DNA of 54,959 bases, from NCBI GenBank assembly GCA_017859395.1, contig JAFMNE010000011.1, positions 1 through 54,959 of the forward strand. The letters are read 5' to 3'. This document shows, one piece after another, positions 10,174-12,222 of this stretch. The position numbers and the translations under genes are program-made. Each line of letters opens with the position of its first letter. Position 1 is the first letter of the stretch. This stretch comes from Ilumatobacteraceae bacterium. Its GTDB lineage: Bacteria; Actinomycetota; Acidimicrobiia; Acidimicrobiales; Ilumatobacteraceae. The notes below the pieces were generated by a model that was given only the letters and a program-made list of their open reading frames with translations, was not told the DNA's origin and ran no database searches.

Positions 10174-10253
10174 GTACGTGTTAACCGTGCATGTTTCTCG
10201 CGCGAAACCCCTGCACCACCATCATCGCGGGTAAGAACATCCGCGCCGATCAG

Positions 10254-10326
10254 AGCCGGGTGCGGGAATCGAACCCGCGACCACATGATTACAAGTCAAG
10301 TGCTCTACCAACTGAGCTAACCCGGC
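10254..10326 (-). tRNA. tRNA-Thr (anticodon TGT)
   Basis: The acceptor stem GCCGGGT pairs with ACCCGGC. The D-arm is GCTC...GAGC, the anticodon loop CTTGTAA gives TGT, and the T-arm is GCGGG-TTCGATT-CCCGC. The anticodon stem has one T-T mismatch. The CCA end is not encoded. Confidence 0.95.
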
Positions 10327-10418: not shown

Positions 10419-10796
10419 GTGGACGTCGACCAACTGCTTCGCCGACACCTCGCAACCGTGCCCGACGTGCTCACCCAGGTGGATGCCGCCCACCGAGGCG
10501 CACGCGACACCGTTGATGCCGACCTCCTCACCCAGTGTGAACGACGCATCTGCGAACTGCTCGGTGTGGCCTCAGCGCCTGCCGATGCCGGAGATTCCGC
10601 AGCCATTACGGCATGCCTCGCGTTCGTCGACGGCTACATGCTCGATGTTGCAGGACTCGACGATGACACCGTCACCGCGGTGCAAGATCACCTCGGGGAT
10701 CAGGGCCTGGCGGACTTCGTCGCTGCATTGCTCGTCGTCGAGCAGCGCTATCGCATGGCGTTGGCCATCCAGCAGGTCCTCGAGGTCGCATCGTGA
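10419..10796 (+). CDS. Helical partner of the CMD-like selenoprotein candidate
   Basis: A 125-residue all-helical protein. No family is certain, but the C-terminal half (LADFVAALLVVEQRYRMALAIQQVL) resembles the last helices of carboxymuconolactone-decarboxylase/AhpD-like proteins. It has two Cys near the middle (CERRICELL) and a third in ITACLAF; there is no CxxC. It starts with GTG and ends in a GTGA overlap with the next gene, so the two are translationally coupled and may form one complex. The exact role is unknown. Confidence 0.65.
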   Translation: MDVDQLLRRHLATVPDVLTQVDAAHRGARDTVDADLLTQCERRICELLGVASAPADAGDSAAITACLAFVDGYMLDVAGLDDDTVTAVQDHLGDQGLADFVAALLVVEQRYRMALAIQQVLEVAS

Positions 10797-11299
10797 CGGA
10801 CAAGTCACGCCGCATCGCATCGGGGGTGCACCCCCACCCCGACATTCTCGGACCTCTGAGCGAATGGCAGGCCGCCGTGGTGCGTCTGCAACATCTCGAT
10901 CCGGTCACGACGGAACTGGTGCGGATGCGATGCGCCGTCTACCACGACTGCCACACTTGACTGAGTGTTCGCTTGGCGGTCGCTGAGCAGCAGGGTCTCG
11001 ATGAACCAACCATCGACAAGGTGCGTCGGTACGAATCAAGTGATCTCGCCGAGCACCACCGCGTCGCGCTGCGATTCGCCGATGCGATCATGACCCAACC
11101 TCGACTCATCGACGACGGGCTACGGGCTGATCTGCACCGCTATTTCACCGTGGAGCAGATCGTCGAACTCACCGTTGACGTGATGAAGTGGAACTACCAG
11201 AAGATCCCGGTCGCGCTCGGCACTGATGTGGAGGTGCGACCCGGCGAACTCACTCCCCTGGTGTTCGACGATGACGGGCACTGGGTCCGTCCCGGGTGA
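10793..11299 (+). CDS. CMD/AhpD-like protein, candidate selenoprotein (in-frame UGA = Sec56)
   Basis: Read as one 169-codon frame, this gives a 168-residue carboxymuconolactone-decarboxylase/AhpD-like protein. Codon 56 is TGA (10958-10960). The surrounding residues are VYHDCHT-[TGA]-LSVRLAVAEQQGL. Family members have a CxxC redox motif exactly here, so TGA occupies the second Cys position and the motif would be C-x-x-Sec. The frame is identical on both sides and sequence conservation continues without a break (IDKVRRYESSDLAEHHRVALRFADAI). A SECIS-like hairpin follows at 10971-10988. Such proteins are thiol-dependent peroxidases or disulfide reductases. The alternative is a nonsense mutation (TGC to TGA). 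The genes selA, selB, selC and selD are not in the window. Confidence 0.75.
10971..10988 (+). promoter_or_regulatory. SECIS-like hairpin
   Basis: GCTTGGC and GCTGAGC form a 7-base-pair stem (five Watson-Crick and two G-U pairs) closed by the loop GGTC. The loop begins with GG and lies 17 bases after the UGA, which fits the 16-37 base spacing and the early-loop G expected of bacterial SECIS elements. Confidence 0.65.
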
Positions 11300-11343
11300 A
11301 TCGCTGATACTTCCGTGCCTGCAGCCTCGGCCGCGTGCTGACC

Positions 11344-11349
11344 TAATCT
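11344..11349 (+). promoter_or_regulatory. -10 element (TAATCT) of the PhyH-like gene
   Basis: TAATCT is 6 bases before the ATG at 11356. Confidence 0.55.
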
Positions 11350-11355
11350 GCGTCC

Positions 11356-12222
11356 ATGGGGGCACCAACGACTGTCGAACAAGCACGGAACATGATCACC
11401 CCAGACGTACGCGAGACGTATGCACGAGATGGAGTGGTCATCCTCCGCGAGGCTCTTCACCCGGAATGGCTCCTCCTTCTTCAGTTGGGACTCGACCGCG
11501 TCATGGGCGATGCCGGCCAGCGGAAGCATCTGTTCTACGACGGCACCGACCGCGAGTTCATTGAATTGGTTCGCAACACTGACATCTGCCCCGAGTTGCA
11601 ACGCTTCATGTTCGACTCCCCGATCGCCGACATGATGGCCGTGCTACTCAATTCTCCTGACATCTGGCTGTACTCGGACGAGTGGTTTGTGAAGGGTCCG
11701 AACGGAGGGCGCACTCCGTGGCATCAGGACATGCCGTACTGGCCGATGGAAGGGTCCATGGTGGCGTCAGCCTGGATCAGTCTGGATCCCCTCCCAGCTG
11801 AGGAATGTCTGGAGTACGTCCGGGGAACGCATCGCGGAGCCCGCTACGACGGATTCGATCCTCGTCGGGTGAATGAGGACCCGACGCTGCCGTACTTCGG
11901 GTCGGAATATCCCCCGCTTCCCGACATCGAGGCTGACCGGTCCGCGTGGGACATCGTCTCGTGGGACATCGCACCAGGCGACGTGATCTTCGCCCACCCA
12001 GCGACACTTCACGGCGGTGGGCCCACAGGGCCTCAGAGCACCCGACGCGCTATCACCGTTCGGATGTACGGCGACGACATCGTGTACGCACCACGACCGC
12101 CTGGTAAACCAACGGTGCCGCTCACACCCGGCCTCTCGCTGAATCTCCAACACGGTGACCCACTGAGGAGCCCGTGGTACCCGCGGTTGAGACCTGTCCC
12201 CCCATGGCAGCAGGCACACTAA
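11356..12222 (+). CDS. Phytanoyl-CoA dioxygenase (PhyH) family protein
   Basis: A 288-residue Fe(II)/2-oxoglutarate-dependent oxygenase. The iron ligands are readable as His123-x-Asp125 (TPWHQDMPYWP) and the distal His219 (HPATLHGGGPTG), followed by the 2-oxoglutarate-binding Arg region (STRRAITVR). The N-terminus has the typical YARDGVVILREAL. These enzymes hydroxylate acyl-CoAs or small secondary metabolites; the substrate is not evident. It stands alone between the CMD-like operon and the convergent sortase gene. No biosynthetic partners are visible. Confidence 0.85.
   Translation: MGAPTTVEQARNMITPDVRETYARDGVVILREALHPEWLLLLQLGLDRVMGDAGQRKHLFYDGTDREFIELVRNTDICPELQRFMFDSPIADMMAVLLNSPDIWLYSDEWFVKGPNGGRTPWHQDMPYWPMEGSMVASAWISLDPLPAEECLEYVRGTHRGARYDGFDPRRVNEDPTLPYFGSEYPPLPDIEADRSAWDIVSWDIAPGDVIFAHPATLHGGGPTGPQSTRRAITVRMYGDDIVYAPRPPGKPTVPLTPGLSLNLQHGDPLRSPWYPRLRPVPPWQQAH

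Follow-up and report, generated by a model that had tools for sequence, protein, structure and literature searches.

The window analysed here, a stretch of 54,959 nucleotides from the genome of an Ilumatobacteraceae bacterium, carries on its forward strand a two-gene module consisting of a CMD-type gene with one in-frame TGA and an overlapping upstream gene. The features of this module and its immediate surroundings, with positions counted from the first base of the window, are as follows.

10253..10326, minus strand: tRNA-Thr gene (anticodon TGT) bordering the module; context
10419..10796, plus strand: upstream partner gene, encoding a degenerate CMD half of 125 residues without CxxC
10793..10796, plus strand: GTGA overlap, where the Sec-gene start codon lies within the end of the partner gene
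10793..11299, plus strand: Sec-CMD gene, with a GTG start and an ordinary TGA stop (11297-11299), predicted to encode 168 residues including one selenocysteine
10949..10951, plus strand: TGC codon 53, the partner Cys of the CxxU pair, invariant in a 38-row alignment (A4)
10958..10960, plus strand: TGA codon 56, predicted to be read as selenocysteine; second position of CxxU, kept in relatives
10971..10988, plus strand: predicted bacterial SECIS hairpin with 7 pairs and a GGUC loop (10978-10981), 17 nt after the UGA
11356..12222, plus strand: PhyH-family dioxygenase gene (Pfam PhyH, E 1.3e-20); context, not part of the enzyme

The frame at 10793-11299 contains a single internal stop, the TGA of residue 56 at 10958-10960, which lies in YHDC-H-T-U at the second Cys position of the CxxC motif, as stated in the original prediction. 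When read through, the protein scores 27.9 bits against Pfam PF02627 (CMD), above the gathering score of 23, and the claim of one frame with family-typical sequence on both sides of the TGA was borne out. The AlphaFold2 model of this protein (pLDDT 91.1, pTM 0.86) comprises a single CMD, and its nearest solved chains by fold are 2GMY, 2O4D, 7XW1 and 6OHJ. Under translation table 11 the frame is broken, and a 108-aa downstream piece is the sole ORF listed in frame.

A search of 221 genomes of the family (the window's own included), 82 of which yielded some match at E 0.001, placed a TGA at this codon in all 24 of the best matches that cover it (L001 and L021-L043; E 5.5e-31 or better, 42-97% identical; L040 partial) and also in the partial match L045 (62% identity, E 6.3e-24), answering the question of whether close relatives carry TGC or TGA at this site. 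The first Cys relative in the ranking is L044 (E 3.9e-25, 41% identity). In the following, family orthologues are the 24 matches that rank above L044 and cover the codon, plus the partial L045, from 25 genomes in total; 16 of these 25 entered alignment A2, from which L044, L046, L047 and L049 were left out and in which L037 was shortened. Weaker family matches that were read (L044 and L046-L049) all encode CxxC, and 20 TGA-bearing ones were also looked at, with G129:C526 falling outside these. In a class-wide sample of 395 genomes, in which classification was limited to the seven best matches (E 2.2e-67 or better) and many weaker matches also carry TGA, each of the seven contains one TGA; six are from Ilumatobacteraceae, and one, with the motif HHDCRTU (L171), is from another family (G332).

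A scan of named genomes, in which the best 80 of 160 relatives were kept, found codon 56 to be TGA in 38, TGC in 36 and TGT in 6, i.e. the UGA site corresponds to Cys in all 42 non-TGA relatives of this set. According to the record labels, the Sec forms among these 80 are from Ilumatobacteraceae, other Acidimicrobiia-type MAGs, marine Acidimicrobiaceae and Chloroflexota; most Cys forms come from mycobacteria or further Actinomycetota, and one is a Woeseiaceae record. Five records titled Bifidobacterium breve (L056, L057, L088, L089 and L094) group with Ilumatobacteraceae or other actinobacterial MAGs, and their titles look mislabelled. No relatives were found in two scans of viral contigs. The tree as drawn, which has poorly supported deep forks and long branches that join, implies at least three Sec/Cys changes, one alone being forced by well-supported branches. 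L098 (Pseudofrankia) and L102 (Frankia), two Cys relatives that are fused and have the Sec-type motif YHDCRTCLS, are placed weakly, on a long branch, within the Sec part of the tree; a replacement of Sec by Cys is possible in these two.

The hairpin downstream of the TGA is formed by pairing of 10971-10977 with 10982-10988, two of the seven pairs being G-U, and the coordinates agree with the earlier description of a GGTC loop on a 7-bp stem 17 bases past the TGA. Published rules for bSECIS elements, as given in the accessible part of the source (PMC13188914), specify a loop of 3-9 nt, a stem of 4-16 bp, a G in the first two loop positions, a distance of 16-37 nt from the UGA and an energy of <= -7.5 kcal/mol, and the element predicted as SECIS-like lies within these rules (4-nt GGUC, 7 bp, 17 nt, -7.9 kcal/mol). 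The z-score of the 18-nt hairpin alone is -2.19 at that energy. Single-sequence folding was unremarkable over 61 nt (z +0.50) and 39 nt (z -0.03) and was rejected as proof of a SECIS; the hairpin is considered to be beyond chance because the TGA is kept in relatives and the stem covaries, and not because of the folding of its own sequence.

For the analysis of covariation, 62 TGA sequences were reduced to 43 non-redundant ones (L045 was left out), of which 34 actinobacterial sequences were used and 9 from Chloroflexota, whose loop register is shifted, were counted apart. The loop-end bases G and C of the window covary with A and U in relatives. Codons +6 and +7 after the TGA are GCA-GTT in 24, GCG-GTC in 10 and, in the Chloroflexota, GGC-GTT in 9 of the 43 sequences; the synonymous third bases of the Ala-Val codons are combined as A with T or G with C in 34 of 34 actinobacterial sequences, compared with a mean of 6.5 and a maximum of 15 in 1000 synonymous codon shuffles. 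Over eight pairs, 252 of 272 cells were paired versus 173.9 +/- 5.5 (maximum 192) in 1000 codon shuffles, a control under which three of the eight pairs are invariable. A second, independent counter applied to the same 34 sequences (31 distinct rows, 248 cells) gave 92.3% of cells paired versus 79.2% in shuffles, 39 two-sided changed cells versus 11.6, and a covariation score of 0.497 versus 0.225, each value being reached in 0 of 500 shuffles; slid-side controls were 22-58% paired. Measures less swayed by relatedness were weaker, with 5 pairs showing two-sided change versus 4.0 (reached in 134 of 500 shuffles) and 13 further pair types versus 10.5 (8 of 500). These values are counts and not probabilities, because the rows share ancestry and the structure itself was derived from them.

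Six of the eight pairs were also found by RNAalifold in an unconstrained run, and in the nine Chloroflexota Sec sequences, with their shifted register, a stem of 7 pairs is capped by a GUU loop. Among the best 80 of 160 named relatives, the inner five pairs occur in 26 of 29 actinobacterial Sec loci versus 0 of 42 Cys relatives, and GU is present in the loop in 29 of 29 versus 1 of 42. The conservation in relatives that the original prediction had named as a test was found for the hairpin too, with compensatory changes across the 34 actinobacterial sequences, and on this comparative evidence the hairpin behaves as a SECIS. The Thr codon preceding the TGA (10955-10957 in the window) is ACT in 25 of 34 sequences (alignment A5) compared with 40 of the 349 other Thr codons of these genes, which is possibly a 5' context effect. 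That the TGA is a nonsense mutation in a decaying pseudogene, as the frame cut by table 11 and the lone 108-aa downstream piece might indicate, is extremely improbable and was rejected, because the TGA is common to the 24 family matches that rank best, the lowest of them at 42% identity, and to Chloroflexota relatives, the protein sequence past it is conserved, and the hairpin is constrained at synonymous sites.

The genome that contains the window (2.25 Mb in 95 contigs, 95% complete) encodes all of the machinery proposed as a check, namely selA (C95, E 1.2e-96), selB (C95, 259.5 bits versus a cut-off of 242.25), selD (C17, 316.5 bits versus a cut-off of 125) and tRNA-Sec, or selC (C95, 62.6 bits versus a gathering score of 47, anticodon TCA (UCA)). 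On C95, selA, selB and the tRNA-Sec gene are all <=3 kb apart. A selA match was found in 25 of 25 orthologue-bearing family genomes (weak or partial in G083 and G104) versus 138 of 196 others (Fisher p 4.5e-4, with kinship ignored and many of the genomes incomplete). At the genus level, the Sec gene is present in 2 and selA in 15 of 16 genomes. Two incomplete genomes, G050 and G056, have a weaker TGA-bearing CMD match and no selA match, probably owing to missing sequence.

General reassignment or read-through of TGA, for example as Trp, finds no support beyond the fact that the frame is open under any code in which TGA specifies an amino acid; it is very improbable and was rejected, because TGA serves as the ordinary stop of both the Sec gene (11297-11299) and the partner gene, the site is TGC or TGT in the 42 non-TGA relatives among the best 80 of 160, and the Sec machinery is present. 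Two separate proteins, one restarting at 10973 (TTG) and the other a short peptide left by the upstream fragment, would be in keeping with the 108-aa ORF, which does have a TTG start. Such a split would, however, cut the CMD domain beside its Cys pair, conservation is continuous through the TGA, and the Cys relatives are unbroken at the site; this explanation, which is just as hard to credit as reassignment, was rejected on these grounds. The decoding of UGA 56 as selenocysteine is, by comparison of sequences, strongly supported.

Two other groups of TGA-bearing CMD-like genes were seen among the 20 weaker family stretches. The TGA of a second subfamily, comprising 8 of the 20 (L130-L134, L136, L146 and L147), lies in QLN[QE]C[HV]VU[LM]NTRAASAM and is followed in the predicted fold by an 8-pair hairpin; one member, L130, is located in the window's own genome (G000:C87:17363-17632, minus strand). 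A third subfamily with DCGYURNVRF accounts for 9 of the 20 (L135, L137-L142, L144 and L145), to which L143 is related, and has GGTC at the loop place in 9 of 9 and a 7-pair hairpin in the predicted fold in 8 of 9. Ilumatobacteraceae thus seem to hold several CMD-type selenoproteins.

The GTGA overlap between the partner gene and the Sec gene suggests that the two are translationally coupled, and the same 4-base overlap occurs in 10 (L050-L059) of the 38 named Sec loci (best 80 of 160 relatives). In this set, a partner adjoining or fused to the Sec gene was detected by profile in 38 of 38 and by BLAST in 37 of 38 loci, on the same strand and either overlapping, within ~80 bases upstream, or fused; the profile was built from 37 Sec loci and the window, and L085, which lay outside it, scored E 1.3e-51. 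The partner cluster is represented in 16 of 16 lineage groups and no other neighbour cluster in more than 6 of 16, when fragments of the CMD gene and shadow ORFs on the opposite strand are disregarded, so that a conserved operon beyond the partner was rejected. Profile-profile comparison of the partner with the CMD half gave 95.8% probability (E 7.4e-9, 8% identity), and the partner consensus VDPxLLELCRLRIAxLLG aligns where the active half has VDPVTTELVRLRCAxYHDC. The partner encoded in the window is shorter than most. Among the best 80 of 160 relatives, the halves are in one open frame in 31 and separate in 11 of 42 Cys loci, whereas they are separate in 36 of 38 Sec loci and fused yet Sec in two (L062 and L063). 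This overlapping half-gene, which was absent from the original prediction, recasts the Sec protein, most likely as the catalytic half of a two-half enzyme.

How two such halves may be arranged was examined in L062, a Sec relative in which they are naturally fused. Its model has a pLDDT of 79.8 and a pTM of 0.83, with a linker of low confidence, and a Foldseek search with it returned no match below E 0.001, Sestrin2 ranking first at 0.018. Upon realignment to Sestrin2, residues 16-301 of the model matched residues 75-474 of the chain with a Z of 17.7 over 232 residues and an rmsd of 3.1; single CMDs reached Z values of up to 12.1 against the same model, and unrelated helical models can score as high as about 13-14. 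Because the two chains align in the same N-to-C order, the dead half should, to judge from these ranges, overlie the catalytic half of Sestrin2, and the reverse. Assignment to the sestrins by sequence was rejected, no sestrin being present among the 11 matches of profile A3 up to E 10. In Pfam searches, all 13 fused members examined matched CMD (13/13), with one other match at chance level. An organization as two pseudo-twofold CMD halves is supported for L062 and, by homology, would extend to the pair in the window.

In the alignment of 38 rows (A4), E41, C53, position 56 and R60 are invariant and H51 is nearly so, and T55 is invariant in the 16 rows of A2; a distant Sec relative, L104, has Tyr at position 55. 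The active site of 2PRR from Ralstonia is described in the accessible part of the source as consisting of Glu74, Cys86, Tyr88, Cys89 and His93 (PMC4674687), and the Glu-Cys spacing in the window protein equals that of E74 and C86. Mycobacterium tuberculosis AhpD and 2PRR are, as far as that part of the source goes (PMC4674687), like the window protein in the Cys pair and in a Glu located 12 residues before the first Cys, whereas the relay Tyr and His of AhpD are replaced by Thr55 and Arg60. Since the relay residues are absent, the AhpD mechanism would not be transferable unchanged. The fold matches between the window protein and M. tuberculosis AhpD chains are at E 0.7 or worse. The designation 'CMD/AhpD-like' therefore holds for the fold and fails for AhpD proper, of which the catalytic Cys pair and Glu are found here and the relay Tyr and His are not. 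Retention of the Glu and the Cys-pair spacing together with loss of the relay points to a dithiol-type pair as in CMD/AhpD redox enzymes, in a protein that is not AhpD by residue.

Taken together, the locus very probably encodes a genuine SelB/SECIS-decoded selenoprotein that forms the catalytic half of a two-half CMD enzyme with an upstream dead half. Computation supports the signals for Sec decoding, their conservation, and the homology and linkage of the partner. In the mechanism proposed, SelB would read UGA 56 as selenocysteine under the guidance of the GGUC-loop SECIS 17 bases downstream, and the overlapping upstream gene would supply the other half, of the same fold ancestry and without CxxC. 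The halves would pair as a pseudo-symmetric heterodimer like the halves of Sestrin2; by analogy with the naturally fused relatives, such pairing of the two chains is rather likely. Sec56 and Cys53 would constitute the redox pair, the selenol attacking a peroxide or a disulfide-like substrate and the selenenylsulfide then formed with Cys53 being reduced by a thiol donor. Attack by the selenol of Sec56, with Cys53 as the resolving residue, is the likeliest chemistry, and the prospect of peroxidase or reductase activity is evenly balanced.

The two-gene module is absent from all nine congeneric stretches compared (L177-L185), of which eight contain the tRNA-Thr gene without the module and the ninth is too short to reach the tRNA. 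In seven of the nine, in which both sides of the tRNA are shown, a uridine kinase gene is followed by tRNA-Thr and then by sortase or SpoU genes; of the other two, one stops short of the tRNA and the other has the tRNA but not the sortase/SpoU genes. The partner, Sec and PhyH genes (10419-12222) fill a stretch beside tRNA-Thr that is missing from seven congeners, reflecting either acquisition or loss in the other congeners, and this block is possibly a small genomic island. An orthologue of the PhyH gene, ~84% identical, follows the Sec gene at a distance of 3.5-4.5 kb in L055, L057 and L058, and in L058 genes for an EthD/DUF4286 protein and a short-chain dehydrogenase intervene. The PhyH neighbourhood hints at a catabolic role, one that is not general across loci.

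This bears on the alternative that the protein is a real selenoenzyme that does not reduce peroxides and instead has a catabolic or reductive dehalogenating function comparable to that of the CMD-fold debrominase Bmp8. Bmp8 is among the nearest solved structures both by sequence (E 9.3e-7) and by fold (E 2.7e-4), the AhpD relay Tyr and His are absent from the window protein, and several loci have catabolic-looking neighbours, namely the PhyH dioxygenase, the EthD/DUF4286 protein, short-chain dehydrogenases, a thiolase-like protein and MFS transporters. Against this, the matches to other CMD proteins, whose role is unknown or supposed to be antioxidant, are just as good, and none of these neighbours reaches the recurrence of the partner, the only one found in more than 6 of 16 lineage groups when shadow ORFs are set aside. 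Bmp8 (6OHI, 6OHJ) shares the CMD fold and differs in sequence, with 19-20% identity to the window protein in the structural match. Bmp8 has reportedly been likened to the selenoenzyme deiodinase. No published link to debrominases was found among the papers listed, which concern unrelated subjects. Overall, a Bmp8-like function appears unlikely, though well short of negligible.

CMD-like CxxU selenoproteins have been catalogued since 2005, as recorded in the accessible parts of three sources (PMC1088965, PMC9312934, PMC13188914), and a 2026 catalogue contains the entry 'CMD-like protein, PF02627, CxxU' (PMC13188914). The window protein has the same Pfam family and the same Sec position as those of the Sargasso Sea set (PMC1088965) and the 2026 catalogue (PMC13188914), and the listings give domain and motif, with a partner gene unmentioned in the accessible parts of these two sources. 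To judge from the descriptions rather than from accessions, the marine Acidimicrobiaceae sequences L070-L074 may be the same protein as the Sargasso Sea sequences. The window protein stays below the cut-off of every model in NCBIfam release 20. The closest curated model by E-value, NF053654 ('YciW-related (seleno)protein'), matches 16 of 16 members of A2 at E 0.001 or better and gives 46.1 bits for the window protein, below its cut-off of 310, and NF041047 (GSU3128 family (seleno)protein) gives 23.1 bits, below its cut-off of 110. In the literature searched, which covered few subscription papers, we found neither a description of a CMD selenoprotein partnered by a dead half nor a paper on selenoproteins of Ilumatobacter; the papers found for selenoproteins or selenocysteine in Acidimicrobiia concern, by title, other subjects. 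Both CMD-type CxxU selenoproteins and AhpD fusions in which one half is dead are already published, as the accessible parts of the sources establish, and the arrangement of a Sec half and a dead half in split genes is apparently undescribed in the literature searched.

With the present analysis, Actinomycetota and Chloroflexota, which are known mostly from metagenomes, gain a selenoprotein family that is well supported and whose gene appears broken when read under table 11. The covariation of its synonymous bases provides a clear natural example of a SECIS. The coupled dead half lends itself to testing and offers a natural system for studying the role of the non-catalytic half of sestrin-like proteins. 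The dead CMD half and the Sec CMD half could form an obligate two-gene 'split sestrin', translationally coupled and pseudo-symmetric, in which the dead half binds a substrate or regulator, a proposal to which we attach about equal weight for and against. If it is true, the split sestrin would correspond, with Sec and with its halves in separate genes, to the architecture regarded as ancestral to sestrins.

Human Sestrin2 (5DJ4) resembles the proposed enzyme in having two pseudo-symmetric CMD halves, one catalytic and one not, according to the accessible part of its description (PMC4674687). The same part of that source places the catalytic half of Sestrin2 at the N-terminus with a single Cys, whereas here the catalytic half is C-terminal and has CxxU. 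Fused AhpD-like proteins of Corynebacterium ureicelerivorans and Comamonas aquatica are alike in their N-terminal half without cysteines, in their two-cysteine C-terminal half and in their sestrin-like architecture, as presented in the accessible part of PMC11429811. Those proteins, as characterized there, use cysteines in one chain, whereas the family described here uses Sec and is encoded by two genes in 36 of the 38 named Sec loci among the best 80 of 160 relatives.
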